NCBI RefSeq assembly: GCF_004804275.1
Contig: NZ_STGI01000005.1
Location: forward strand, 124,001-188,000
DNA: 64,000 bases
Reading direction: 5' to 3'
DNA from: Herbaspirillum sp. ST 5-3
GTDB taxonomy: Bacteria > Pseudomonadota > Gammaproteobacteria > Burkholderiales > Burkholderiaceae_D
In this document: one piece after another, positions 1,600 through 17,227 of the stretch
Position numbering within the stretch: the stretch's first letter is position 1
Layout: each line of letters begins with the position of its first letter
Notes under the pieces: generated by a model
Told to the model about the DNA's origin: nothing
Seen by the model: only the letters and a program-made list of their open reading frames with translations
Databases searched by the model: none
Position numbers and translations under genes: made by a program

Positions 1600-2664
1600 T
1601 CATTTTTTTGCCGCCTCCAGCGCCTTTACCCCGGGCGATTTACCCGCCGCAGCTTGTTTCGCCCCTCCTCCGCTCACCAGATTCTTCGCACCTCTCCCCG
1701 CTGCTCTGACTGCGCTCACAGCGCCGCCGCCAACTTTTTGCGCTGCCCCGACAGCGGCACCACCTGCGCCTTGTGACATGCCGGGCATCGGCATGCCACC
1801 AATAATATCGGCGGCCAGTTGACCCGCCTTGGAGGTAAGAATCATCAGTGCGATCGTGGTCGCCAGGATCTGTCCACAAACTGTCATGATGTGCGCGAAG
1901 TCGCCACCCGTATTTACGTCTTTCAAAAATTCGGCCATGATCAAAGCGGCCATCCAACAAATGATCGCAAGAACGACGCTTGCAAAACTCCACTTCAGGA
2001 CCGCCGATAGCCAGGTGTGAAAAAAGTTTTGCGTTGCTTCAAAGGCATACAAGGCAATGAAAACAGGGCCGACGCCAAAAATGATGATCAACCCCAGCCC
2101 GTTGGTCATCATGTCCGCAAAAGCCAGCACACACAAGATTAGAACGAATAAAATCAGGATACAGGCGGTCAGGATCACCGGGATCCCTGACAAATCAAGC
2201 TCAATGGGGATTTTTAGCGCAAGGCTGAACTTGAACCCAATCGTGATGTGGTCCCATCCCCATGCAACGAGTTCGAAAAACGTTTTTAAACCGGCGTTGA
2301 AGACATCATCGATTGCAGCAACAGGCGCACCGGACGCCTTGGGGAAAAAAGCTTGGATAAATGTCGCGGAAAAGTTTCCTGCCTTCGACGTATCAAAGAA
2401 GCCCAATATATATTTCTGATAATTTGCGGCCGTCAGCCCTAAAAATGTGACCAGCGCCACTTTGATATTGTTGGCAAAAAGGTCGAGCAAATGATTGCTC
2501 CCACCCTGCCCTCTGATGATATTAATGCCCTGCCACATGATTTTCACGGTCAACCCCAATGTCATAAAGGGGGTGACGACCTCGGCAATCGCCGTGCTCG
2601 CATGGGTCAAGGGCTCGAATTTCACTATAACGATGTTGTGGTACAAATCAGTAAAAAATGGCAT
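1600..2664 (-). CDS. virB6: Type IV secretion inner-membrane channel protein VirB6 (VirB6/TrbL family)
   Basis: This 354-residue polytopic inner-membrane protein matches VirB6, the part of the translocation channel that contacts substrate beside VirB8 and VirB10. Hydrophobic segments lie near residues 25-50, 70-90, 150-200, 205-245 and 255-290, with the family's long central stretch of consecutive helices. After about residue 290 the tail is Gly/Ala-rich and basic, typical of cytosolic VirB6 tails and low in complexity. It is the last recognised gene of the minus arm, 87 bases after virB4. The gap holds no virB5, which often sits here in related clusters. The length fits the family (about 300-400 residues). 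The ATG at 2664 is the first good start. Confidence 0.85.
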   Translation of the reverse strand: MPFFTDLYHNIVIVKFEPLTHASTAIAEVVTPFMTLGLTVKIMWQGINIIRGQGGSNHLLDLFANNIKVALVTFLGLTAANYQKYILGFFDTSKAGNFSATFIQAFFPKASGAPVAAIDDVFNAGLKTFFELVAWGWDHITIGFKFSLALKIPIELDLSGIPVILTACILILFVLILCVLAFADMMTNGLGLIIIFGVGPVFIALYAFEATQNFFHTWLSAVLKWSFASVVLAIICWMAALIMAEFLKDVNTGGDFAHIMTVCGQILATTIALMILTSKAGQLAADIIGGMPMPGMSQGAGGAAVGAAQKVGGGAVSAVRAAGRGAKNLVSGGGAKQAAAGKSPGVKALEAAKK

Positions 2665-2751: not shown

Positions 2752-5136
2752 TCAAGCCACCTCCAAAAACTTGTGTATCCAATTTCCCGGATCATCGCCA
2801 ACGCGCTTGCGCAATTCATCGAGTTTGGCGATATTCGCCGTCGTGCCCGACAATATTTTTAGTTCATCATCAAAACCGTTCAGATCCAGTGTGGCAACGA
2901 ACACCGTGCCGCCCTGCTTGACCACGAACATTCTTGATCCCTCGCCCAGGCTTCTTACCAATTCGAATTCGGCATCCGTCAGCTTGAAACCCTCGACATA
3001 GTCTTTGTAGTCGGCGGTGGGATTGGGCAGAAAGATGAAGGTAGCGGTCTGCTCAATCAGCGCACGGGCGATCGGGCTGCGCAAGGTGTCCGACGGGCTT
3101 TGCGTCATGTAGACGCCGAATCCGTTTTGCTTTCGTATCGTTTTCTGTTTGTTCTTCGCGAAATCTTCAAAGTAGGAAACCGACAGCGCCTTCCAGTATT
3201 CATCCATGAAGAATGCGAAGCGGCGGCCGTCAATCAGATTTTCGACCCGGTACATCAGGTACATCATGATGGCCGGACAGGTCAGCGCATCATCCAGCAC
3301 TTCCGTATAGTCAAAACCGTAGGTGCGATTCCCGGAAAACTCCAGCAGGTCTTCGTCGCAGTCCAGCGCCCAGCCGAGTGGGCCTGACCAGCACCATTTC
3401 TTGAGCCGCTCGGCGACACTATTGTCATCGATGTTAGGCAAGTTCTGCAGGACGGCCTCGAAGCCGCGCAATTTCTGGGGCAGCAATGCGACGGCACGGG
3501 CCGCGTGGGATATCTCGGCTTCCTCGAGCGGTGTGTGCGGCGAGCCCGGCATCAGCGTACAGAATTTGATGAGGTCTTCCCAGAACAGGATGTTGGCTTC
3601 GGTCGGCTCCATCTTGAATGGGTTGAAGCCGGTTGGCTGGCCGCGTTCCAGCGACAGGTACTGGCCTCCCGCCGCACGAATCGCAATCTCGGCGCCGCGG
3701 TCCTTGTCGAAGAACACCATCTGGGTGCCGTACTTGTACATGTTCATCATCAGGAACAGTGCCAGAACGGTCTTGCCGCCGCCGGATTGGCCGATGATCT
3801 GGCAATTGCCCAGCGCGGATTTGCCGAACGAGTCTTCATCCTTGGGCGTGGCGTGGAAGTTGAAGTAAACAGGCTGATCTGCGGGCGAGCGGAGAATCGT
3901 GACCGCTTCGCCCCATGGATTGCCGTCGCGCTTGCCAAGCGAGAAATTATGCATCGCGCACAAACCGGAAAAATTGCGCGAGCTGAGATTGGCGGAACGG
4001 GGACGAGAACGCCAGTTGCCGGGCAATTGCGATGCATAGGCATGATCCACGACCAGGTCCAGCGGCACGCCCAGGAATCCTGCTGCCTGCAGTGCTTCCA
4101 CTGCGGCCGATCGTGCCGTCTTGAGGGTGTCCAGCGTCGGTGCTTTGACTTGCATCAGGTAGTGATATTGGCCCAGTGCGAAGGTCCCGCTTGCGACCCC
4201 GTCAATTGCCTCATCCAGTTGCTCCATCTGGCTCACCGCGTTGTCCTGGGAGCTGATCATGCGATTGCGCTGCAGTTTCAGGGTCGCCTTTGCGTCCAGG
4301 GCATGCATGGGTGAAAACGAATGGGTTTCGACATATTCGCAAGGCAGGCTGAGCATGGTATTGAGAATGCCCGGCTCGGAAAAATCCGCGTAGTCCTTGA
4401 TGTCGACAAACGCCGAAAAGAAGGTTCCATGGCTTCCCCGCGTCTCCATGACTTCGTTGCCGCACAAGACGCGGGCAGTCGCGAGATACTTGTAAAGCGG
4501 AACGCGCTTGACCGGGATGCGCCACCAATAGCCATTGATCAGAAAAGCATAGAACTCCTGCTGCTGGCTATAGGTGACGTCGTCCAGCTCATATTCATCA
4601 AGCCGGATCGGCCCGTAGGCCGACAAGGTACGCATCACCTGTTGATGAAGGTTGTCCATCGCGTCGATGACCGCCTCTTGCTCGATGCGTATCTCCTCAA
4701 GGGTGACGCCTGTCTTTCCCACCAGTTTTCCGGATTTTTGCGGATAGGGGCGATAGATGATGGTCAAATAGATTTCGGTTGCCATCAAACCGTCGGCAGA
4801 CAGCGCGTCGTAATACTTCCTGATGAGTTGGTACGGAAAGCCGGACTTGGGCGTGTCGAGCGTGTCGTAGGTATGCCGCCGAACCCGGTGCACCCAAAAT
4901 GCGTACTTCCCGTTGGACAAGCTGCGCACCAGCAGATTGAGTGCATCCATTTTTGCATAGGCTTCTTCATTGCTCATCCCTTCAAACGACAAGCCGTGGA
5001 TGAACCAGGTTGTCATATAGTCGCCGTTTCGGGTCGATACAATATTGCTGGTCAAGCGAGAAGAGAACGGAATCAGTCTGCTGACGACATCTTCGGTTGA
5101 CGCGAGCCGACGTGTTGCGGTGCTATCTGCATTCAT
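2752..5136 (-). CDS. virB4: Type IV secretion ATPase VirB4
   Basis: A 794-residue VirB4/TraC-like AAA ATPase that powers pilus assembly and substrate transfer at the cytoplasmic face. The N-terminal half (CagE/TrbE/VirB4 domain) runs to about residue 420. The Walker A motif GQSGGGKT ends with Lys455 and Thr456, and the Walker B region is near FAFFMDEYWKAL (about residue 650). The length matches VirB4 (about 780-820). It follows virB3 by 9 bases and precedes virB6, so virB2-B3-B4-B6 form one transcription unit. Family assignment is firm from the Walker motifs and neighbours. Confidence 0.95.
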   Translation of the reverse strand: MNADSTATRRLASTEDVVSRLIPFSSRLTSNIVSTRNGDYMTTWFIHGLSFEGMSNEEAYAKMDALNLLVRSLSNGKYAFWVHRVRRHTYDTLDTPKSGFPYQLIRKYYDALSADGLMATEIYLTIIYRPYPQKSGKLVGKTGVTLEEIRIEQEAVIDAMDNLHQQVMRTLSAYGPIRLDEYELDDVTYSQQQEFYAFLINGYWWRIPVKRVPLYKYLATARVLCGNEVMETRGSHGTFFSAFVDIKDYADFSEPGILNTMLSLPCEYVETHSFSPMHALDAKATLKLQRNRMISSQDNAVSQMEQLDEAIDGVASGTFALGQYHYLMQVKAPTLDTLKTARSAAVEALQAAGFLGVPLDLVVDHAYASQLPGNWRSRPRSANLSSRNFSGLCAMHNFSLGKRDGNPWGEAVTILRSPADQPVYFNFHATPKDEDSFGKSALGNCQIIGQSGGGKTVLALFLMMNMYKYGTQMVFFDKDRGAEIAIRAAGGQYLSLERGQPTGFNPFKMEPTEANILFWEDLIKFCTLMPGSPHTPLEEAEISHAARAVALLPQKLRGFEAVLQNLPNIDDNSVAERLKKWCWSGPLGWALDCDEDLLEFSGNRTYGFDYTEVLDDALTCPAIMMYLMYRVENLIDGRRFAFFMDEYWKALSVSYFEDFAKNKQKTIRKQNGFGVYMTQSPSDTLRSPIARALIEQTATFIFLPNPTADYKDYVEGFKLTDAEFELVRSLGEGSRMFVVKQGGTVFVATLDLNGFDDELKILSGTTANIAKLDELRKRVGDDPGNWIHKFLEVA

Positions 5137-5145
5137 CGAAGACTC

Positions 5146-5466
5146 CTATCTGCGTTTACTGAAGTCTATCGGAGACATGCTGTGCGCCTCCCAATAAGAG
5201 CTGTTTCTCCGACCCGCGATGCTCTTGAGTCTGAGCACATGCTGATTCAAGCGCTGTTCGTCCTGCGTGCTGATCTGCCGCATGAAGAATACGTTCACCG
5301 CCCCCGCTGAAAGGATCACGAACATGGCGAAAACCCCGATCAAGGTCATGGCCCACATCCCCAGCAACAAATGAATGCCTACGACGAGAATCAAGGGGAC
5401 GATAGGAACGCCCAACATCATCGCCGGACGAGTGGCGCCTTTAAAAATGACATCACGGTATTCCAT
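5146..5466 (-). CDS. virB3: Type IV secretion protein VirB3
   Basis: A small 106-residue inner-membrane protein of the VirB3 family, which associates with VirB4 and is needed for pilus biogenesis. It has the usual N-terminal lead with a Thr-Arg-Pro step (GATRPAMMLGVP) and two close hydrophobic helices (about residues 18-36 and 38-62), then a basic soluble tail containing DEQRLNQHVLRL. It lies between virB2 (18 bases upstream) and virB4 (9 bases downstream). Confidence 0.9.
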   Translation of the reverse strand: MEYRDVIFKGATRPAMMLGVPIVPLILVVGIHLLLGMWAMTLIGVFAMFVILSAGAVNVFFMRQISTQDEQRLNQHVLRLKSIAGRRNSSYWEAHSMSPIDFSKRR

Positions 5467-5484: not shown

Positions 5485-5787
5485 TTATTTTGCTTGAGTA
5501 ATAAACATAGGCGCGACAGTCGCTGCGGCGCCGATCAGAACGCCGCCCCAAAACACCGGAGCGACGTCTTTCCACTCCGCTGCCTGGAATGCCATGCGGA
5601 ACCCTACAAACATCAAGGCGAGCGTAACAACCAGCGCGCCAATCGTGGTGAGCCATGTCTTAATATTTTCTAGCAAGGTTTGACCCGCATTGATTTGGGC
5701 AAACGCCGGCTCGGTGAATGCGAGCAGCAAAAAAGCGATGGACAAAATTTGAAATACCCAGAACGAGATGGATTGGAATTTATTCAT
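5485..5787 (-). CDS. virB2: Type IV secretion major pilin VirB2
   Basis: A 100-residue prepilin. A long signal peptide (about residues 1-30, ending EPAFA before Gln) is followed by two hydrophobic helices (about 44-66 and 76-95) joined by a short basic turn, the layout of VirB2/TrbC pilins. It is the first gene of the minus arm. A strong purine-rich ribosome site (gggggaaag, read on the minus strand) precedes the ATG, as expected for an abundant subunit. Family length is about 95-125 residues. Confidence 0.88.
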   Translation of the reverse strand: MNKFQSISFWVFQILSIAFLLLAFTEPAFAQINAGQTLLENIKTWLTTIGALVVTLALMFVGFRMAFQAAEWKDVAPVFWGGVLIGAAATVAPMFITQAK

Positions 5788-6809: not shown

Positions 6810-7235
6810 ATGAAAATCGCTTCCCTACTCGCAGTCCTGGTACTGACAGCATGTTCCACCTCGCCGCCGGAATTGAAGTATGCGGATGGCAGCAACAGAA
6901 TTCCCATCAAACCGAGGCCGATTCCTCACCGCCCATCTGCGGCCGAAAAATTAGCGGCACCAGAAGCAATCGCAGCGGTGCAGAAAACAGCGCCGGAAAA
7001 GAGTGGAGCAAACCAAGCAGGCTCGACAGCGAAACCGGCAATATCCGCTGACAAGCCATCGCCACCCGCCTCACCTGCCGTCGCCGAGGCACCAGCGGAG
7101 ACCTTTCATGTTGCGCCTTCTCCCTTTGCACCAAAGTTGAAAGCAAAGCATAAATGCAGCCGTCCGAACAACGCGGCCCCGGGTTCTGACCCCGACGCGG
7201 CACTCGGCCATCTCCAATTCAAATCGCCCAGCTAA
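6810..7235 (+). CDS. virB7: VirB7-like outer-membrane lipoprotein of the secretion core complex
   Basis: A 141-residue lipoprotein with a signal peptide and an LTAC lipobox (Cys15 as acylation site). VirB7 anchors VirB9 in the outer membrane, and the position just before virB8-virB9-virB10 supports that role. The mature part is mostly Pro/Ala/Lys-rich and low in complexity, with one further Cys near residue 117 that could pair with VirB9 or itself. Classical VirB7 has only 45-60 residues. Long versions exist in killing-type systems, but I cannot see the folded N0 domain those carry. Assignment rests on lipobox plus context, so the exact family is uncertain. The gap to virB8 is 75 bases. Confidence 0.7.
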   Translation: MKIASLLAVLVLTACSTSPPELKYADGSNRIPIKPRPIPHRPSAAEKLAAPEAIAAVQKTAPEKSGANQAGSTAKPAISADKPSPPASPAVAEAPAETFHVAPSPFAPKLKAKHKCSRPNNAAPGSDPDAALGHLQFKSPS

Positions 7236-7310: not shown

Positions 7311-8024
7311 ATGGTTAAGTCGAAAAAAAAGAGAAACAAAACGGACGAAGAGAATTTCGTACCAGATTTGAGTTGGGACGCGGACATCGTCTCGAACGAG
7401 CGCGCCTCGCGAATCACGGCCTGGCGCATCGCCTCCTGCGCCATTGCGATGGCCTTTGTCATGGCGATCGCCTTGATATTCCTGATCCCGCTCAAACAAG
7501 TCGTTCCCTACGTGGTAGCAGTAGACAAATTGACGGGCGAGGCGAACGTCGTCAGCCCCGTCAAGGATTACGTCACGACGGGTGCGATAAACGACAAATA
7601 CTGGATCAAACGATTCGTGATCGCACGAGAACGTTATAAGTATCAAATCCTGCAGCAAGACTACGACACCGTGAGAGCACTAGCCGGCGACAAGGTCTGG
7701 CAATCCTATGCCGCGATGTGGGAGGGATCGGATGGATTGGACAAGAGACTGACCGATCAGGTCGAATACATCCCGACTATCTTGAGCGTGACCTTGAATG
7801 GCAAGGGCATTGCGACGGTACGCTATGAATTGAGAACACGCGACTTTCGCAAGAATGCCGCGACTGTGACGCGCAATGTGGCGACATTGCGCTACAACTA
7901 CTCACTACAGATGATGAAAAAGGAGAGCGAGCTGATCGAAAATCCGCTTGGCTTCTCCGTCGACGCGTATCAAACCGATCCTGAGTTGGCCACTTCTGCT
8001 TCCGAATCCAAGGTGACGAAATGA
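7311..8024 (+). CDS. virB8: Type IV secretion inner-membrane protein VirB8
   Basis: A 237-residue bitopic protein of the VirB8 family, an assembly factor linking inner-membrane subunits to the core complex. It has a short basic cytoplasmic N-terminus, one membrane helix (about residues 39-61) and a periplasmic NTF2-like domain (about 75-225). The typical motifs VVPYVVAVDKLTGEA, YDTVRALAGD and RNYVATLRYNY-like text (seen as RNVATLRYNYS) are present. It overlaps virB9 by ATGA (8021-8024), indicating translational coupling. Length is normal. Confidence 0.93.
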   Translation: MVKSKKKRNKTDEENFVPDLSWDADIVSNERASRITAWRIASCAIAMAFVMAIALIFLIPLKQVVPYVVAVDKLTGEANVVSPVKDYVTTGAINDKYWIKRFVIARERYKYQILQQDYDTVRALAGDKVWQSYAAMWEGSDGLDKRLTDQVEYIPTILSVTLNGKGIATVRYELRTRDFRKNAATVTRNVATLRYNYSLQMMKKESELIENPLGFSVDAYQTDPELATSASESKVTK

Positions 8025-9037
8025 ACTATCTATTTCTCGCTGGCCTGGCGCTGACGATAGCGTCCGGTGTTGCCCATAGCACCGAAACATCAACAATGGC
8101 CGACGAAAAGGGCGGCAACAAACGAATCGAGCGCGCAGCGTCCATTGGTGCTCGTAGCGCCGAGGCATCAACAATGTTCGAAGAAAAAGATGACGACAGG
8201 CGAATCGAACACATAGCCCCCGGTGTTGCTCATAACACCGAGACATCGAAAGTGTTCGAAAAAAAAGGCAGCAAAAAACGAACCGAACACCTGGCGTCCG
8301 GTGTTGCTCGTAATACCGAGACGTCAAGAATGTTCGAAGAAAAGGGCGGTGACAAACGAATCGAACACATTAAGTATTCAGAAAACAAGGTAATCAAAAT
8401 TGCCGCCGTCGTCAATTACCCCTTTCTGATCGAATTCAAGGGTGATGATCCGATCGAGGAAGTCGCGGGAGGAGAAATCGCGGGATGGGACGTGCAGAAG
8501 AAAGGCTCTCGGCTGTATATCCGCGCAATGGACAATGCGGAAGACACGACACTACTCGTCACTTCTCACAGTCGCTCTTATGTATTCGATTTGGTGAAGG
8601 CAAAAGCGACCGCGAAAAATATCGCTCGGCTACGCTCCAAGATTGTATTTGATTATCCGCCGCCTCCGGCTTCGCTGGCCGAGTCGTCTCAGCAGCCCGT
8701 CCGCCGGAATGAAAACTATTCGATGCAGGTCGTTTCCGAATCCGCCGATATTCGACCGCGTGACGTGTTTGACGATGGGCGCTTTACCTGGTTCAAGTTC
8801 TCAGAGAACGGAGAAATTCCTGCTATCTACAAGAGCCAGCCCAACACAAAGGACGAGGTTCTGATCGGCTCGCATATGGAGGGAGATTATGTGGTGATGC
8901 ACGCGGTTTCACCACTATGGAATCTGCGCCTCGGTGAGTCGATGATCGGTATATTTAATGACAGCTTTGATGCGCAGGGTGTCGGCCCCGAGGGCGGCAC
9001 GACGGTACGCGGATTTGTCAGGGAGATCAAGAAATGA
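8021..9037 (+). CDS. virB9: Type IV secretion core protein VirB9 with a tandem-repeat insertion
   Basis: A 338-residue VirB9/CagX-family periplasmic and outer-membrane core subunit, which pairs with VirB7 and caps the VirB10 ring. After the signal peptide (about residues 1-20) come four tandem 26-residue repeats (residues 14-117) with the pattern GVAxxTETSxxFEEKGxxKRIEHxA. Ordinary VirB9 begins near residue 118 (KYSENKVIKIAAVVNYPF). The C-terminal domain (about 235-338) has DVFDDGRFTWFKF and the NWMVR-like end in altered form. Usual family length is 260-300 residues, so the repeats account for the excess. It overlaps virB8 and virB10 by ATGA on both sides. Confidence 0.92.
   Translation: MNYLFLAGLALTIASGVAHSTETSTMADEKGGNKRIERAASIGARSAEASTMFEEKDDDRRIEHIAPGVAHNTETSKVFEKKGSKKRTEHLASGVARNTETSRMFEEKGGDKRIEHIKYSENKVIKIAAVVNYPFLIEFKGDDPIEEVAGGEIAGWDVQKKGSRLYIRAMDNAEDTTLLVTSHSRSYVFDLVKAKATAKNIARLRSKIVFDYPPPPASLAESSQQPVRRNENYSMQVVSESADIRPRDVFDDGRFTWFKFSENGEIPAIYKSQPNTKDEVLIGSHMEGDYVVMHAVSPLWNLRLGESMIGIFNDSFDAQGVGPEGGTTVRGFVREIKK
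8060..8371 (+). repeat. Four tandem 78-bp repeats inside virB9
   Basis: Units lie at 8060-8137, 8138-8215, 8216-8293 and 8294-8371, each exactly 78 bases and in frame. Units three and four agree at roughly 78% of positions by hand count. Substitutions are spread out and include many silent changes, so the expansion is not very recent. The first unit begins within the signal peptide end, so it has also been shaped by export. Confidence 0.95.
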
Positions 9038-10266
9038 GCGACCAGAATAATGCAGCCGAAACCCTGCCTCCGGATTCTGAATCGCCATCGGAAGCGCCAT
9101 ACGATCCGCATCGGTTCGACGCGGAACCCAAACGCAAGTCGAAAAAGATATTCCTGTTTGTTTTCATTGCCTTCATGGCCTTCGTAGTCACTGTCGGCGC
9201 ATCCGCCATGTTCATCAAGTCGCGCTGGAACGCCTTTATGGCAGAGCGCGCAGAAAAGGAGAAGCTCGAAAAAGAAAAGCAGGCTGCGAACAACGCCAAT
9301 GGCCGCATGGAAAAGGAATTTATCAGTACGGCGGCATTACCGGACTCGTTTGGCAATCCGAAATCCTTCCCGCCTCTGGGCGAATTGGTCGCCCCGAAGT
9401 CAGAAGGAGTGCCTCCGCCACCGCCATCAAACACCGCGCCACCACCGCCGCCCAAAAAAATGCTCATGGATACCGTCAACGAAACGGCCTCGGGCGAAGC
9501 AGTGCCTTCACGGCCGGGAACGCGAGCAAAAGCGCGTCCCAGGACGGTCCAGGACCTTGCAAACCAGGTCGCGGCCGACGCCCCGATCACGTCGACACCG
9601 CAGGCAAGTGCGGCAAATCTTGGAAATCGTTCGCTCTTGCTGGCCAGAGGCGCTTTCATTCCGTGTGTGCTTGAAACCCAGTTGGTATCGACCATTCCTG
9701 GCAGCGTCAGTTGTGTGGTGCCACAGCATGTGTATTCCGACGACGGCAAGGTACTGTTGATCGACAAAGGCAGCAAGATCGTCGGCGAATACAAAAGCGA
9801 CGTCAACACCGGGGATAAGCGCATCGCGATTCTGTGGAAACGCATCAAAACCCCGACTGGCGTCGTACTGGATGTTGACTCGCCCGCCGCCGACGGCGTC
9901 GGCACGATGGGTGTGCCCGGCATTGTCGACAATCATTGGATGGAACGGATCGGCGCCGCGTTCCTGCTGTCGCTGGTCGAGGATGCAATCACGATCGAGG
10001 TCGCCAAGCAGAGCGGAAAAGACAACAGCGCGCCTGCTGTGGGCGTGCCCTACCCCTACCCAGTTCCCGTTCCCTATCCCCCGATGCAAAACAACCAGAA
10101 CATGCCGACTGCCACCATCGACGCAGGCAAAAAACTGTCTGAGAAAGTGCTATCAGAAACGATCAATATCAAGCCGACGCTGTACAAGAATCGCGGCGAT
10201 CGGGTCATGGTGTTTGTCAATCGTGACCTTTGGTTCGATTCGGTTTACCAACTCACCCAACGCTGA
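9034..10266 (+). CDS. virB10: Type IV secretion core protein VirB10
   Basis: A 410-residue VirB10/TrbI-family protein that spans from inner to outer membrane and gates the channel. It has an acidic cytoplasmic N-terminus, one membrane helix (about residues 38-60), a Lys/Glu-rich coil (70-90), a proline-rich spacer with two runs of five Pro (127-140), and the C-terminal beta-barrel domain (about 205-410). The outer-membrane antenna lies near GIVDNHWMERIGAAF. Features such as LLARGAFIPCVLET and ILWKRIKTPTGVVLDVDSP are characteristic. It overlaps virB9 by ATGA and is followed 4 bases later by virB11. Confidence 0.95.
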   Translation: MSDQNNAAETLPPDSESPSEAPYDPHRFDAEPKRKSKKIFLFVFIAFMAFVVTVGASAMFIKSRWNAFMAERAEKEKLEKEKQAANNANGRMEKEFISTAALPDSFGNPKSFPPLGELVAPKSEGVPPPPPSNTAPPPPPKKMLMDTVNETASGEAVPSRPGTRAKARPRTVQDLANQVAADAPITSTPQASAANLGNRSLLLARGAFIPCVLETQLVSTIPGSVSCVVPQHVYSDDGKVLLIDKGSKIVGEYKSDVNTGDKRIAILWKRIKTPTGVVLDVDSPAADGVGTMGVPGIVDNHWMERIGAAFLLSLVEDAITIEVAKQSGKDNSAPAVGVPYPYPVPVPYPPMQNNQNMPTATIDAGKKLSEKVLSETINIKPTLYKNRGDRVMVFVNRDLWFDSVYQLTQR

Positions 10267-10270
10267 AGAG

Positions 10271-11353
10271 ATGAGCACAATCACTGAACCCGGCCTCGCC
10301 AACCGTTACGAAGCGCTCTCATCGGAGCAGGTCGCGACGGCCGTTGCACTGCAACGCGATGCGTCGGTACGGATTTTTCTTGAGCCGTTCAAGGAATGGA
10401 TTGATGATCCGGCGGTCACCGAGATTGCGGTGAACTCGGTCGGTGTCGTATGGACTGAAAAGAACTCGATCTGGGTCAAGCACGCGTGCCCGGCTGCCAC
10501 CAACAAGGTACTCAGGGCGCTTGGGACGGCCGTTGCAACCTTCTCGAATCAGAAGTGGGATGCCACCACGCCGATCCTGAGTGCTTCCATGCCGGACGGT
10601 TCGCGGATTCAATTGGCCATGCCACCTGTGGTCGAGGAAGACCGGTATTCACTGACCCTGCGCAAGCCATCCCGGACGACGCGAACGCTTGACGATTTTT
10701 CCGCGTCCGGCCTGTTCAAGAAAGTTCAACCCATGAAGGCAGCGTTGAGCAGCCAGGAACAGGAATTACTCAATTTGCTGGAAGCGGGAGACTACGAGGC
10801 CTTTTTGCGGCTTGCGGTGCGGGCACGCATGAACATTGTGGTGGCAGGCGCCACCGGCTCGGGGAAGACGACATTCATGAAAGGTCTGGTGCAGGAGATT
10901 CCGAGAAACGAGCGCCTCATCACGATCGAAGACGTGCGCGAGCTGTTTTTGCCGCATGAAAATTGCGTCCATCTCCTGTACAGCAAGGGCGGTCAGGGCA
11001 AATCCAATGTGAAGCCGAAGGACTTGCTCGAAAGCTGCCTGCGCATGAAGCCGGACCGCATCCTGCTGGCGGAATTGCGCGGCGACGAATGTCTCTATTA
11101 CGTGCGTAATGCTGCCTCCGGCCATCCGGGCAGCATCACCAGTTGTCATGCCGGATCGCCCGCGCTCGTGTTCGAGCAATTGGCCATCATGATTCAGGAC
11201 TCCCCTGGCGGTGCGAACCTGACCTTCGACGTGATCAAGCGCCTGCTGGTGTTGACGATTGATGTGGTCGTTCAGTTCCAGAATCATATGGGCGAGCGCT
11301 TCATCAGCGAAATCTACTTCGATCCAAAAAGGAAGCTGGAGGCGATGAAATGA
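10271..11353 (+). CDS. virB11: Type IV secretion ATPase VirB11
   Basis: A 360-residue hexameric traffic ATPase at the inner membrane that switches the machine between pilus assembly and transport. The N-terminal domain (about 20-150) has the DPAVTEIAVNSVGVVW motif. The ATPase domain has Walker A GATGSGKTT (Lys199), an Asp box near LITIEDVRELF, Walker B near RILLAELRGDE, and a His box (SGHPGSITSCHAGSP). The frame is open far upstream into virB10, but the ATG at 10271 just after the virB10 stop, preceded by gaagag, gives normal length and N-terminus. Its stop overlaps the virD4 start (ATGA, 11350). Confidence 0.95.
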   Translation: MSTITEPGLANRYEALSSEQVATAVALQRDASVRIFLEPFKEWIDDPAVTEIAVNSVGVVWTEKNSIWVKHACPAATNKVLRALGTAVATFSNQKWDATTPILSASMPDGSRIQLAMPPVVEEDRYSLTLRKPSRTTRTLDDFSASGLFKKVQPMKAALSSQEQELLNLLEAGDYEAFLRLAVRARMNIVVAGATGSGKTTFMKGLVQEIPRNERLITIEDVRELFLPHENCVHLLYSKGGQGKSNVKPKDLLESCLRMKPDRILLAELRGDECLYYVRNAASGHPGSITSCHAGSPALVFEQLAIMIQDSPGGANLTFDVIKRLLVLTIDVVVQFQNHMGERFISEIYFDPKRKLEAMK

Positions 11354-14300
11354 GACGCCCGAAGAAAAGAGTCCTCATCGCGGGCGGTGTGCTGTTGTTC
11401 ATCATGCTGCTCGCATTGGCGAATTATCTTTCCGGCGTCATTTTCTTTATCACTTTCTTTGAGAATCCGTCCAAAGCGGGCTTTTTGACCATCGAGCGGG
11501 CCTATATGGCGAGCCCCGACGCGCGCACGATGACGCGAATCCAGGCCAGCGCAATGATTGCATTTCTTCTCTGCGTTTGCGCTCCGATCGGTCTGGCGAT
11601 CGCTTGGCGAAAAAAAAGCAGCGATCTGTTTGGCAAGGCGCGTTTTGCCGATATGGACGACATCCAGCAAGAGAAACTCGATGCAAAGAAAGGCTTGGTT
11701 CTCGGCAAATTCAAGAACGAATTGTTGCGCCTGGGTGGCTATGAATTCGTTTTGCTCGCGGCGCCTACCCGCACAGGTAAAGGTGTCGGTTTTTGCATTC
11801 CGAACCTGTTGCAGTTTCAGGATTCGGCAGTCGTGCTGGATATTAAAGGCGAAAACTACAATCTGACATCCGAGTTTCGCCGGCGGTATATGGACAACGA
11901 GATCGTTTATTTCAATCCGTTTTCCGAAAATACCAAACGCTGGAATCCGCTCTCCTACGTTTCAGCCAATCCCAGCTTTCGGGCAAACGATCTGATGGCG
12001 ATTGCCACGATCATATATCCTGTCAATGAAAAAGACCCGTTCTGGTCGGACGCGGCCAAAAACCTTTTCGTCGGTCTCGGACTACTTGTGCTGGAAACGC
12101 CGGAGCTTCCAAAGACGATCGGCGAAATCCTCCGCCAGGGTTCCGGCAAGGGCAATTCCATCGAGACCTACCTCCAGCATGTTCTGGCTGTCAGGGCCGC
12201 CGGCCCGAATCCCTTGTCAAACGCCTGCCGCGATGCCCTGGGCCGCTTCCTGGGAAGCGGTGAAACGGCATTGAAAGGCATCGTCGCGACTTTCTCGGCG
12301 TCCCTGACGCCTTTTGCCAATGACGTGATCGACAAGGCCACCTCTGGCGACGATTTCGATTTGCGCGATGTGCGCAAGAAGAAGATGACGATTTACCTGC
12401 ACATTCCGGCGGGTGAGATTCTGCAGGCTGCCTTCATCATCAATCTTTTCTTCTCGCAGCTTATCAACGAAAACGTCAAGGAACTGCCAGAACAGAATCC
12501 AGACCTGAAATATCAATGTTTGTTGCTGATGGACGAATTCACGGCCATGGGAAAGGTGGCCATTATCGCCAAGGGCGTCGGTTATATGGCCGGCTACAAC
12601 ATGCGGCTGGCGATCGTCATCCAGGACAAGACACAACTGGAATCTGCCTACGGCAAGGAAGATGCGCACAACATCGTGAGCAACATGGGCGCCGTCATTT
12701 ACTTCACCCCGTCGCAAATCCAGGAGGCCGAAGAATATTCGAAAATGATCGGAAACGATACGGTCATTTCGGACAGCATGCAACGTGCGAAGGGAACCCT
12801 GTTCGGCATCAAGGGCTCTTCCGGAGACAGCAAGACGGCTTCGTATCAATCCCGCGCCGTCATGCTTCCACAGGAGTTGCTGCAAATGCCCAAGGACCAG
12901 GAATTGGTCGTGCGTTCTGGCATACCGGTCATCAAGGCGGAAAAGATTCGCTATTTTGAAGACAAGTTTTTCAAAGAGCGCTTCACCGCCGTGCCCATGC
13001 AGGAGGTGGTAATTGGCGGCGAAAAACGCAAGGTTCCGGTGCCGGCAAAGCTTCCGAAAGGCGACTGGGACGCCTACTACGAATCGATCCGCGGCAGCGA
13101 TTATTACCTGCGTCAGGCAGCACCCCAGTCGGATCAGTCACAAGTCGGTGCGGGCCAAACTGCAGGTGCAGCACCGATCGGCAATCAGGACGATTCACCA
13201 GCAATGCAAGCCGATGCAGGCACTTTCGAGCTGCCTTCCTTACCGGATGAATTTGAATCCTTCCACACCCTGCTCGCCCGATTAAAAGGCTCCGTTTCGC
13301 CACAGCCGATCTCAACCACTATCGCAAGCGCCTTCGCGGAAAGTATCATCCAGTATTGGCAGATGGCCCAGTCGGCGGGTCGCATTGACGATGATGCGCC
13401 ATTGACTATTCTCGATCTTGCACCCGGCGCCGGTCAGTTCGCGTGGCAATTAATGAATGCCTTGCGTGAGCGCGTGGGAACACTGCCGCAGGCGCTTCCG
13501 CCGATTCAATACCATGCCTGCGCCAGCGACGCTCAGGAACAGGCAGCGCTGAACGCTCATCCCTACTTCGCTTCTCTCCACGAGCAAGGCGCCTTCTTTA
13601 CTTCGACGCGCGCCGATCTGCTGGCCGGCGAGGACGCGCTCTCGGCCAATCCTGTCGTTGTGGTGGCGCGTCAGCTTTTCGGCATCCTCGAACAGTTGCT
13701 GATCGATACCCACTATGGGGAAATGTTCGGCGTGACTGCGAAGGCCGCGGCTGATTTCCCTTCAGACGCCAATGCAAATGAACTGAAGCTGGAATATGAC
13801 TGGCCGCCTTTGGAGACCGATTCTCTTTCCTCCTCCTCCGCCGCCGTCCTGGAGATGTATAACAACACCGTCAGCAGTGCGGTCATCTCGCTTCCCTCCG
13901 GCGCCCTGAACCTGCTGGACGAGGTTGAGCGCATTGCTGGAAACCGCTTCCTCCTCTTGTGCTCCGACCGTGCCGTCGTTGATGAAAGAGAGATCCGTCT
14001 CGGCGTCTTTGCGCCGCCTTCATTCGTCACGGTGCCTGCGCCGCCTCCCCTGGTCAATTACCATGCCATCGCCCTTCATCTACGCGCCGCCGGCGCCAGC
14101 GTCTGGCAGGAGAAGGTGCCCGATAGCGATTCGTGCTTCTGTATCGCGCTTCGTGATGACAATAGTAGCGATGAAAGTGGCGACGATCATAGTGACAGTA
14201 CCGATACCCTTTCCCGTCTTCAGGCGCCGCTTGCTGAAGTGCATGGTGATGATGCGCAGCGCCTGGCCGAGTTCGCGCGAAAGTCGGGGAAGTCATTGCC

Positions 14301-15282
14301 GAATTGTCTGTCTTTGTTGAAGCAAGCCGACCATGACCCGCAAATTCTCGGCAAGATCTACCCCGTCCTGGAAACCGACGACTGGAAACTGACGACCACG
14401 ACACGGGAACATTGGCAAGCGGCCTTGGCACGTACCTGGTCGCAGTATTTACCGCAGGCAGACGATGAGAAATTTTTTAAAAAAATGGTCTTCCTGGCGA
14501 GAAAAGTCAGCCACTACGGCTTGGCCCGCATGGTAAGTCAACGTGGTGCCGATTATTGCGGAAGGACTGATGAAAACCTGTGTCGCCTCGCGGAATGCGA
14601 GCTGCAGATCGGCCGCACGGAAGCCGCCGCCGCGCTGGTACGGGAGGTGCTGGAACAGTCTCCGGACCACGAGGCCGCCACTGCATTGATGACGACTATT
14701 ACTACCCGTCTGCAAACCGAGCAGTCGCTCGACTGGTATGTCAGCGATCAGGCACAAACGGGGGCTTTGCATCTTGAGCCGTTGGGAAGCCACCATGCCG
14801 ATCAATATTATTATCAATATCGCGACCCGCAAATCGGCGTGATGGCGATGCTGCCAAAGCTGAAATCACTGGAAGAAGCAAAAGACTGGATAAACCAAAC
14901 GGTGTCCACCCCGACCAGTATGAGTTGCGCAGTCATGCATGAGGATTGGGGGCTGGTTGGCTTCGTCTGCATGCAACGTGCGAGTGACGACGGCTTTTTG
15001 TCCTTCTGGGTCGGTGCCGATCATCAGGGCCATGGTTATGGCGTCGCTGCCGTCAAGGCGTTTCTCGACATGCTTCGTGGCAGCGGCGTGGAAGAAGTGT
15101 TTGCGTCAAGCTTCCGGAATAATCCGCGTGCGCTGCGCGCCTTGAATTCGATGGGATTCCACCAGCTCGACAGGGTGGTGGATGGTGATTACGGCGGAAT
15201 TCTGCTCTTTCATCGTGGGACGCTGGACGATGAAGATGAACTTGAAGACAGGTTTTACAGCTTGTGCGAATCCTTGTCGTAA
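11350..15282 (+). CDS. virD4: VirD4 coupling ATPase fused to methyltransferase-like, TPR-like and GNAT acetyltransferase regions
   Basis: This 1310-residue protein starts as a normal VirD4/TraG coupling protein, the inner-membrane ATPase that recruits substrates. It has two N-terminal membrane helices (about 5-37 and 69-87), Walker A APTRTGKG (Lys144), and Walker B LLLMDEFTAMG (Asp395, Glu396); the ATPase ends near residue 590. A usual VirD4 stops near 560-680. Here, after a Gln/Ala linker, come a Rossmann-like region with SAM-binding motif LTILDLAPGAGQ (685-696), an acidic low-complexity stretch (around 940), a TPR-like repeat (about 1075-1110), and a RimJ/RimL-type GNAT domain (1138-1295) with acetyl-CoA loop QGHGYG (1226-1231). 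No stop or frame change interrupts the reading. Methyltransferase and acetylase activities are inferred only from motifs. Confidence 0.88.
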   Translation: MRRPKKRVLIAGGVLLFIMLLALANYLSGVIFFITFFENPSKAGFLTIERAYMASPDARTMTRIQASAMIAFLLCVCAPIGLAIAWRKKSSDLFGKARFADMDDIQQEKLDAKKGLVLGKFKNELLRLGGYEFVLLAAPTRTGKGVGFCIPNLLQFQDSAVVLDIKGENYNLTSEFRRRYMDNEIVYFNPFSENTKRWNPLSYVSANPSFRANDLMAIATIIYPVNEKDPFWSDAAKNLFVGLGLLVLETPELPKTIGEILRQGSGKGNSIETYLQHVLAVRAAGPNPLSNACRDALGRFLGSGETALKGIVATFSASLTPFANDVIDKATSGDDFDLRDVRKKKMTIYLHIPAGEILQAAFIINLFFSQLINENVKELPEQNPDLKYQCLLLMDEFTAMGKVAIIAKGVGYMAGYNMRLAIVIQDKTQLESAYGKEDAHNIVSNMGAVIYFTPSQIQEAEEYSKMIGNDTVISDSMQRAKGTLFGIKGSSGDSKTASYQSRAVMLPQELLQMPKDQELVVRSGIPVIKAEKIRYFEDKFFKERFTAVPMQEVVIGGEKRKVPVPAKLPKGDWDAYYESIRGSDYYLRQAAPQSDQSQVGAGQTAGAAPIGNQDDSPAMQADAGTFELPSLPDEFESFHTLLARLKGSVSPQPISTTIASAFAESIIQYWQMAQSAGRIDDDAPLTILDLAPGAGQFAWQLMNALRERVGTLPQALPPIQYHACASDAQEQAALNAHPYFASLHEQGAFFTSTRADLLAGEDALSANPVVVVARQLFGILEQLLIDTHYGEMFGVTAKAAADFPSDANANELKLEYDWPPLETDSLSSSSAAVLEMYNNTVSSAVISLPSGALNLLDEVERIAGNRFLLLCSDRAVVDEREIRLGVFAPPSFVTVPAPPPLVNYHAIALHLRAAGASVWQEKVPDSDSCFCIALRDDNSSDESGDDHSDSTDTLSRLQAPLAEVHGDDAQRLAEFARKSGKSLPNCLSLLKQADHDPQILGKIYPVLETDDWKLTTTTREHWQAALARTWSQYLPQADDEKFFKKMVFLARKVSHYGLARMVSQRGADYCGRTDENLCRLAECELQIGRTEAAAALVREVLEQSPDHEAATALMTTITTRLQTEQSLDWYVSDQAQTGALHLEPLGSHHADQYYYQYRDPQIGVMAMLPKLKSLEEAKDWINQTVSTPTSMSCAVMHEDWGLVGFVCMQRASDDGFLSFWVGADHQGHGYGVAAVKAFLDMLRGSGVEEVFASSFRNNPRALRALNSMGFHQLDRVVDGDYGGILLFHRGTLDDEDELEDRFYSLCESLS

Positions 15283-15595
15283 GCCGATTTCATTCGGCGA
15301 CGGCGAGGCAGGGCTGGTATGGGTTTCAGTGCTTTCGCATGGTCGGTAGGGCCACCAGGGAAAGCCTAGCGATACTCGCCATTGCCGCTCTTGTTTTCTT
15401 TCGGCGATACGTGCTGTTGCCCCGTGGATGCCCAAGACCGTGGACAATGGTTGAAGCCTGAACACTAGCGTTCGCAGCGGAGAGCTTGTCGGCGGCATGA
15501 AAATTGTGCATCCGAGTTTTTGCCAAGTCGCATTTGCGGACAAGCAGAAGCCCGGCGCGGACGGCGTCAGGCTTTACCCATGTCTGAGTATCCTG
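15283..15595. other. Convergent intergenic region after virD4
   Basis: No gene is supported here. Short frames on both strands lack ribosome sites and protein-like composition. It lies between the ends of two convergent genes, so transcription of both should stop here, yet I see no strong hairpin with a T-run. Confidence 0.5.
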
Positions 15596-16498
15596 TTATT
15601 GTAATTTTTTGAACAATCTGAAAGCGTCCGAAAGCGATCTTCTTTCTCCCGCATTTTTCGGCACTTGGGGTGTCTGTTCCAATTTCTGCATTTGTTCCGG
15701 CTCCGCTTCCCTCAGCGGCTGCACCCCTTTCAGCTTCGGCAATTCCGGAGATCCCGGCCGCGCCAGATCCCCCATTTTCTTATCCTCGCCTTCTATTGCT
15801 TTCGATATCAGCGCCGCGAGTTCCGTTAGCCGGCTCTGTTCCTGATCCAAATGCTGGAATCGCTCCCGATGCGCTTGCTGCAGCTCGAAAAGGAGCTTCC
15901 GAGCCTGCTCGAGTTGTTGCCGAGCCGGGTCTTCCTCTCGGCCTTCGGGTACGGCCGTCCTGCGGTCGATGTCTTCTTGTGGAGCGGGAGCAGGACTTTG
16001 AGCAAGAGGTGGGGCATTCTCCGATCTCGCGAAAGGATGTTCAAGCCTTGTCTCCAGTGCGTCGAGCTCAGGCTGGTGATTTTCCTGCTGAACTTCCCTT
16101 GTCTGCTCCGTCTGCTCCGAAAGCATCTGCTTCGACTGCACATCCTCCGACTTTTCCTGAGTCGATGGACTTTCCCGGCCGCTTTGAGACGATGATTCCT
16201 CCGGCATCTCCATCGTCTCAGCCGGTTCCGCCGGTTCCCTCGCCGAATTCAGACGATGAACAACAAATGGGATCTTGGTTCCACTGTTAGTCGGCCTTCT
16301 GGCCAGATCAATGAGTTTTTTGGGGCTGGGCGCACTCTGCGTCCTGTTTTGAGTGGCGCGCCCGCCGGAAGCGGAATTCCGCCAGGTGCCTATCTCTGGC
16401 GCCGCCTGAGGTACCGCCACATCAGAACGTGGCGACGCGCCTGGAGTTGGCGTGCGCAGCGGGCTAGGAAGCGGTGAAGTGGGCCGTGGACCGGGCAT
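15596..16498 (-). CDS. Charged, coiled-coil, Pro/Ser-rich protein; candidate secretion substrate
   Basis: I do not recognise a family. The 300 residues divide into a Pro/Ser/Arg-rich disordered N-terminus (1-75), a Glu/Gln/Ser-rich middle with many SEQTEQ-type steps (90-150), a likely coiled coil (about 195-240, with heptad-like LEQARKLLFELQQAH), and a basic C-terminus ending SDAFRLFKKLQ. There is no signal peptide or membrane helix, so it is cytoplasmic unless secreted. Glu-rich and basic C-terminal patches occur in many type IV secretion effectors, and the gene sits next to virD4, so a substrate role is a reasonable guess. The opposite strand is also open over much of this span, but with weaker, Pro/Ser-dominated composition. 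The ATG at 16498 has only a weak purine-rich ribosome site. Confidence 0.6.
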   Translation of the reverse strand: MPGPRPTSPLPSPLRTPTPGASPRSDVAVPQAAPEIGTWRNSASGGRATQNRTQSAPSPKKLIDLARRPTNSGTKIPFVVHRLNSAREPAEPAETMEMPEESSSQSGRESPSTQEKSEDVQSKQMLSEQTEQTREVQQENHQPELDALETRLEHPFARSENAPPLAQSPAPAPQEDIDRRTAVPEGREEDPARQQLEQARKLLFELQQAHRERFQHLDQEQSRLTELAALISKAIEGEDKKMGDLARPGSPELPKLKGVQPLREAEPEQMQKLEQTPQVPKNAGERRSLSDAFRLFKKLQ

Positions 16499-16759: not shown

Positions 16760-17227
16760 CTAGTCGATTTCCCGCACGCCTTTCGCGATTCTGCAGCGCT
16801 CCACGCAGTCGCGCATGGTTCTCGCGACCGCGTGGGGATCGCTGATCGCATTGAGGACGACGACAGGCGTTGATCGATCGGAAGTCAGCAAGACAACGCA
16901 GCCATGTCCCAGCATTCGCTGCAACAAGGGTTGCTGAATGGAGATGTCCTTGACGCGATACAGTTCCAGTTCATCGGTTTGTCGAAACAGAATGCCGCTC
17001 GATTCCTGCAGGCGCTGGTCGGTCAATCTGTAGGTGTGGCAGACCGTTTTCAGACAACGGTACATCGCATAGATGACGGGCACGACCAGCCAGCAAAAAA
17101 GCAGGCATAGAAAGTAGGCGCCGGCATTGGCGATTTGCCCCTCCGTGCCGGCCCAAAGCAGACCGGATTCAGGAGAATAGGTCGGCTGTGGGTTACCGGA
17201 GTAGGGATCGTCGTATTGATCACTCAT
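16760..17227 (-). CDS. Small membrane protein with bacterial PH (bPH2, YdbS/YdbT-like) domain
   Basis: A 155-residue protein. It has a Tyr/Pro/Ser-rich N-terminus, a hydrophobic stretch that can form one or two helices (about 34-60), and then a bPH2/DUF304-like domain (about 65-145) with the characteristic YRLTDQRLQESSGILFRQTDELELYRVKDI pattern (seen in shorter pieces: YRLTDQRLQ, VKDISIQQPL). Such domains occur in inner-membrane proteins of unclear biochemical role. It is divergent from modA and upstream of the coiled-coil gene on the same strand, so those two might be co-transcribed. It may mark the right border of the accessory block. Confidence 0.75.
   Translation of the reverse strand: MSDQYDDPYSGNPQPTYSPESGLLWAGTEGQIANAGAYFLCLLFCWLVVPVIYAMYRCLKTVCHTYRLTDQRLQESSGILFRQTDELELYRVKDISIQQPLLQRMLGHGCVVLLTSDRSTPVVVLNAISDPHAVARTMRDCVERCRIAKGVREID

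Follow-up and report, generated by a model that had tools for sequence, protein, structure and literature searches.

A VirD4 coupling ATPase fused to a MidA-like, TPR-like and GNAT module with relatives beside type III, type VI and extracellular contractile injection systems

Coupling ATPases and the fusion gene

VirD4 is the hexameric substrate receptor of type IV secretion systems, and its described forms closest to the protein considered here (VirD4 of Nitrosomonas eutropha plasmid p2, TrwB and TraG) have two N-terminal membrane segments, Walker A and B motifs and a PF02534 domain. In the Legionella Dot/Icm system, the coupling ATPase DotL offers its C-terminal tail as the docking site for adaptors and chaperones (PMC12857230). 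The window analysed here, which is the whole 64,000-nucleotide stretch of Herbaspirillum sp. ST 5-3 (contig NZ_STGI01000005.1, positions 124,001 to 188,000), carries as the last gene of a virB locus a single plus-strand frame (11350..15282, 1310 aa) in which a VirD4 with all of these features is followed by a linker, a MidA-like part, a TPR-like helical region and a GNAT domain; the last three are called the module below. The earlier note on this DNA, made from the letters alone, had given the same frame, domain reading and coordinates, all of which hold, and had stated that no described coupling protein is known to have this arrangement; neither a VirD4 with such domains nor the module itself is described among the full-text literature matches listed (titles and abstract starts; preprints and most subscription papers lie outside that literature).

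Comparison with the N. eutropha p2 system shows the same virB11-virD4 order and a VirD4 58% identical over 591 aligned residues; however, the N. eutropha protein ends at 666 aa, and no unfused VirD4 that was compared carries MidA-TPR-GNAT. The likeness to Dot/Icm (DotL with DotM/N/Y/Z and IcmSW), where a long C-terminal part of the coupling ATPase serves as a cargo-recruitment platform (PMC12857230), is one of working only: the DotL tail recruits separate adaptors, whereas here folded, enzyme-like domains are attached covalently, and no sequence kinship is claimed.

The VirD4 part (residues 1-592, 11350..13125) matches PF02534 with E 8e-103 and 345 bits (cut-off 20.1), with Walker A at residue 138, Walker B at 391 and hydropathy peaks for the two membrane segments at residues 14-32 and 66-85, so that the complete VirD4 recognised earlier is borne out. 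The linker (residues 593-655, 13126..13314) is followed by a MidA/COG1565-type methyltransferase fold (residues ~656-938, 13315..14163) with the glycine loop ILDLAPGAG at ~686-694. The MidA fold is found in the structure model; PF02636 gives 12.8-14.3 bits here, under its gathering cut-off of 23.3, and identity to the MidA, NDUFAF7 and COG1565 arginine methyltransferases is 10-14%. Across 22 members of the module family, one matches PF02636 at E up to 0.01 (best E 1e-8). The second MidA motif contains an acidic residue (NEFxDALP); at its position, in a part of the alignment that is itself uncertain, the window protein has NPVVVVARQLFG and some members beside contractile systems have NYVFDS or NYVLDS.

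The next region (residues ~947-1126, 14188..14727) is helical in the structure model and matches TPR_19 at 20.4-21.6 bits, under the cut-off of 25; a TPR model exceeded its cut-off in one relative (L037, 30.6 bits). The RimL-like GNAT domain (residues ~1138-1293, 14761..15228) is above the Pfam cut-off (Acetyltransf_3) and shows a GNAT fold in the model. The acetyl-CoA loop of this fold is defined by Q/R-x-x-G-x-G/A, a pattern satisfied by QGHGYG at residues 1226-1231 (15025-15042), just where that loop had been placed from the letters. By fold, both end domains resemble protein-modifying enzymes, the MidA arginine methyltransferase and the RimL N-acetyltransferase; what sets the GNAT here apart from RimL and RimJ is that it belongs to a larger conserved domain arrangement associated with injection machines. 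A possible internal start from which the module would be made as a product of its own, ATG at 13204-13206 (codon 619), is preceded only by a distant AGGA (judged by eye).

The same in-frame VirD4-module fusion, with virB11 directly upstream, was found in three genomes from two other genera (G904, G1074 and G1126; 1233, 1218 and 1238 aa), the comparison that the earlier note had suggested for virB11-neighbouring genomes. Since these three share the fusion, stop-codon loss or sequencing error, which had been put forward as the plain alternative, is rejected; the linkers are in frame but differ between window and sisters in sequence and in length. The fusion is confirmed as real. Although standalone module homologues exist in most genomes with a match, these sisters show that the two parts do not always occur as separate genes. 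That a recent stop-codon loss, a misassembly or a sequencing error joined two genes has practically no chance of being right, as the unfused VirD4 of Nitrosomonas and of genome G797 and the mostly separate module genes, which speak for it, are set against sister fusions that share a gene order and a clade. All four fused modules form one clade (support 100/100 in a tree of 37 modules), and therefore one fusion event suffices.

VirD4 of the window is 76% identical to that of each sister, and the sisters are 89-95% identical among themselves; over the module, window and sisters share 36-40% in the MidA part, 28-30% in the TPR part and 30-33% in the GNAT. The module thus evolves much faster than VirD4 (28-40% versus 76% identity), as a client-facing part might. 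The closest unfused VirD4 found are those of the N. eutropha plasmid and G797 (57-58% for the latter); fused and unfused proteins align to about residue 590 and then part. In 14 other genomes of the window's genus there was no VirD4 match at E 1e-30 and no module match in searches at E 0.001 and E 1e-20.

The sisters differ from the window in the state of their loops. Both window loops look intact, whereas the sister GNATs have lost the QYRDPQI stretch and carry RGRRYS, which departs from the acetyl-CoA loop pattern, and their MidA loop reads APARG instead of APGAG. Directly after each sister fusion lies a conserved gene (L125:5218-6207 region, L126:6840-7631, L127:10929-11636) that is TraX by Pfam in G1126 (E 4.4e-40) and is 75% and 80% identical to the G1126 protein in G904 and G1074, respectively; no TraX match was found in the window's genome. 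TraX is the family of F-pilin acetylation. An intact GNAT where TraX is absent and a degraded one where it is present make up just one evolutionary contrast, which gives no more than a hint.

The module outside type IV systems

Profile searches of sampled genomes found the module in 29 others of 392 from the same family (30 including the window's own), in 12 other genomes of 399 sampled from the same order and in one other of 369 from the same class. The family search gave 32 match rows: the window itself, 21 that were fetched (G031 among them) and 10 that do not enter the locus counts. Among GTDB genome contigs, alignment A3 yielded 21 named relative loci in 58 pattern matches, and a single-protein query yielded no relative among 21 pattern matches. 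Five of 72,556 plasmid records held relatives that covered part of the query (two of the five were looked at), and one scan of viral contigs gave no relative among 22 pattern matches. GNAT-only matches (in G059, in G025 and, over 18% of the query, in a Serratia plasmid) were not counted as relatives. The sets from the order, class, family, GTDB and plasmid searches overlap; with duplicates (contigs of equal length) removed, 50 distinct loci were examined. No NCBIfam model spans the module, and 22 members gave partial GNAT or TPR matches at E 4.2e-5 or weaker.

Judged by marker proteins, 42 of the 50 distinct loci lie in or beside an injection-machine locus: 20 neighbour a type VI system (TssM/TssA), 10 belong to a type III operon, 9 neighbour extracellular contractile injection systems and 3 are the VirD4 fusions. 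Beyond what the earlier note contained, the module is thus, on the evidence of sequence comparison, common to type III, type VI and extracellular contractile systems. Its readable contexts as a standalone gene are the loci of these other machines, and VirD4 and VirB4 probes gave no match beside standalone homologues. Homology of the latter to the fusion extends across almost all of the module (29% over 641 aa in one case), but they have no VirD4 attached. A GNAT-domain gene downstream of tssL is reported for type VI system T6SS-1 of Paraburkholderia sabiae (PMC10434147).

In all ten type III loci measured the module gene starts between -1 and +24 bases from the end of the secretin gene sctC, and in all 20 rows of the type VI strand list (19 distinct loci; L036 and L040 are absent from it) it lies on the same strand as tssA, overlapping or adjacent to it or up to 5.35 kb away. 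For the markers (TssK, TssL, TssM, TssA; SctC, SctN, SctU, SctQ; VirB), Pfam confirmed one or two representatives, the others being BLAST relatives of those; labels for the contractile systems come from annotated Chromobacterium and Iodobacter plasmids, tblastn to these, and PF13699. The SctT and SctR labels rest on position, as does the label SctW for the gene following the module in L033 and L073, for which Pfam gave nothing. Two relatives (L141 and L143) share one contig of G1037, one beside a contractile system and the other beside a type VI system. In one genus, short TPR-GNAT relatives of 310-318 codons (L133, L134, L135) occur with no machine marker in the stretch fetched.

In the 37-module tree, which leaves out the short rows L039 and L041 (present in an earlier tree) and into which L132 entered as a contractile-system member without evidence of its own, the type III modules form one clade (100/100), the type VI modules do not, and those of contractile systems fall into two groups. 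The parts of the module are kept unevenly. A GNAT match is present in 22 of the 22 members of alignment A4, and among the 26 type III and type VI rows shown, 25 (9/10 and 16/16, respectively) still have the Q-x-x-G loop. Two contractile-system members (L128, L129) retain MidA-TPR without a GNAT, those of Chromobacterium and Iodobacter have a GNAT truncated at its end, and some type VI members (L039, L041) retain TPR-GNAT without the MidA part. At the type VI locus of G122 the module is split between two genes ~1 kb apart (L040:8426-10306 and 11268-12470), one MidA-TPR and the other TPR-GNAT. The length of L044 (537 aa) is an overestimate, because its called frame runs into tssA in a different frame. 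The second MidA motif can be made out in L074, in L132 and in some contractile-system members (L090, L128, L129), but not in L091, L015 and L016 or in the rows of types III, VI and IV. The TPR model of the type III chaperones SycD/LcrH matched weakly in 3 of 22 members (best E 4.2e-5). The reading favoured is that binding would be the general function of the module, that acetylation is probably kept in some members including the window's, and that methylation is doubtful.

Divergence of the module follows that of its neighbours across the 12 type VI and 10 type III loci compared (in L087 a contig end truncates TssM). Pairwise module divergence correlates with that of SctC at Spearman 0.72 (1 of 2000 label shuffles as high), of the SctT-like protein at 0.68 and of SctU at 0.47, and with that of TssM at 0.56 (10 of 2000) and TssA at 0.53; for every module-apparatus pair at most 26 of 2000 shuffles were as high. 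Control correlations between apparatus proteins are 0.35-0.70, the weakest being TssA-TssM at 0.35 (133 of 2000 shuffles as high). The module tracks the apparatus genes about as well as those track each other.

The virB locus and its surroundings

The fusion gene closes a locus in which VirB6, VirB4, VirB3 and VirB2 are encoded on the minus strand and VirB8 to VirB11 and the fusion on the plus strand. VirB6 (1600..2664, PF04610), the VirB4 ATPase (2752..5136, PF03135), VirB3 (5146..5466, PF05101) and the VirB2 pilin (5485..5787; 65% identical over 72 aa to N. eutropha VirB2 by BLAST) are followed by a small lipoprotein (6810..7235, plus strand), which is VirB7-like by position and lipobox as judged by eye and has no Pfam match. 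VirB8 (7311..8024, PF04335), VirB9 (8021..9037, PF03524), VirB10 (9034..10266, PF03743) and the VirB11 ATPase (10300..11353, PF00437) complete the plus-strand series; the open reading frame of VirB11 opens at 9872 and homology begins at its residue 158, so the start is uncertain. VirB1 and VirB5 were not found at the locus by BLAST with the N. eutropha set. Genome-wide, a single VirB4-type system was found and the module is present once. As to conjugation, the search covered one relaxase family, PF03432, and gave no match anywhere in the genome.

Convergent with the fusion gene is a minus-strand gene (15596-16498) for a 300-residue, proline-rich and probably disordered protein with no Pfam match, and a gene for a small bacterial PH-domain (bPH_2) protein (16760-17227, minus strand) adjoins the type IV locus. 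Just upstream of the window (L066:13412-18116), three adjacent genes encode proteins whose signal peptides resemble one another; a phage-tail lysozyme domain (PF18013) is present in one of them (14675-16087), and chitin-binding-like repeats, as seen by eye, in another.

Possible role of the module

The core parts of type III, type IV, type VI and contractile machines are largely unrelated. A common apparatus target is therefore hard to see for the machines that share the module, and an adaptor for cargo handling or maturation is favoured because the VirD4 fusion places the module where cargo enters and because cargo and chaperones are a theme common to the machines. In the proposed mechanism, to which nearly even chances are given, the module would be a dedicated cytosolic accessory of injection machines that combines a MidA-like fold and a RimL-like protein acetyltransferase with a TPR-like region for binding. 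It has a gene of its own next to type III, type VI and extracellular contractile systems, and in one type IV lineage would have been fused once to VirD4. In the cytosol, its TPR/MidA part would bind an effector or an effector's chaperone as client, and in the window's genome the GNAT would acetylate that client or a partner before handover to VirD4. That the module sits in the cytosol is suggested by its association with the cytosolic side of machines, whether as a neighbour or through fusion. On this view the fusion would amount to a coupling complex built into one protein, with a role like that of the adaptors on the DotL tail. The wider proposition, that one module of two protein-modifying folds around a TPR-like core is the cargo-preparation part of at least four unrelated machines (type III, type IV, type VI, contractile), with the VirD4 fusion as a 'Rosetta stone' placing it at the substrate receptor, is put forward tentatively and with a probability short of one half.

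The earlier suggestion that the extension could modify or select cargo at the gate survives as the best-supported class of explanation from sequence; what does not survive is acetylation as the whole function, for the degraded GNATs imply that it is not needed in the sister fusions. Several further observations weigh against the cargo-handling reading. Methylation is doubtful, given that rows of types III, VI and IV show no recognisable second MidA motif. Eight of the 50 loci (L131, L132, L133, L134, L135, L139, L074, L088) have no machine marker, on contigs that are short or in fetched stretches of at most ~10 kb per side. The window's own genome has one TssA (ImpA_N) gene, on another contig, and the 20 kb around it contain TssM and TssA matches and no module. 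No effector was identified in that genome, in which no effector search was made; the client is putative and the module activity predicted. The fast divergence of the module also fits relaxed constraint, and its co-divergence with the apparatus may come partly from shared host ancestry.

An unlikely but serious alternative is a non-catalytic scaffold or sensor, in which a pseudo-methyltransferase, TPR and pseudo-GNAT would bind S-adenosylmethionine or acetyl-CoA and regulate assembly or the ATPase, leaving cargo unmodified. It is consistent with the GNAT being degraded in three of the four fusions, end-truncated in the Chromobacterium and Iodobacter members and missing from two contractile-system members, with the loss of the MidA part in L039 and L041, and with the state of the second MidA motif; however, a pure scaffold would not need the Q-x-x-G loop, which nearly all type III and type VI rows and the window protein keep.

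Rather improbable is that the module modifies the apparatus instead of cargo (for example pilin, an inner-membrane component, or VirD4 or VirB11) and so licenses assembly. The free module gene does adjoin core apparatus genes (SctC, TssA), and the genome with the intact GNAT has no TraX match, but the latter contrast is between a single genome and a single clade of three, TraX sits in the inner membrane and acts on pilin while the GNAT here is presumably cytosolic, and the apparatus proteins of the machines concerned are unrelated. GNATs include toxins and self-immunity enzymes, and the best fold matches include MccE, the acetyltransferase that gives immunity to microcin C7; even so, an effector or an immunity enzyme, modifying target-cell proteins or protecting the producer, is very improbable for a protein with a conserved operon place beside core genes, co-divergence with them and, in the fusions, a covalent tie to a membrane ATPase expected to remain in the donor.

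Substrate selection by type III, type IV, type VI and contractile machines is usually studied system by system because their cores are largely unrelated, and a module common to all four may be something new in kind. An accessory homologous across all four would suggest that they share a step in the cytosol, possibly the acetylation of proteins or a chaperone-like treatment of cargo, and folded, enzyme-like C-terminal domains would be added to the known type IV coupling proteins. The natural VirD4 fusion would offer a direct handle on this step, as the module can be altered with the ATPase left intact and its partners captured at a defined site.
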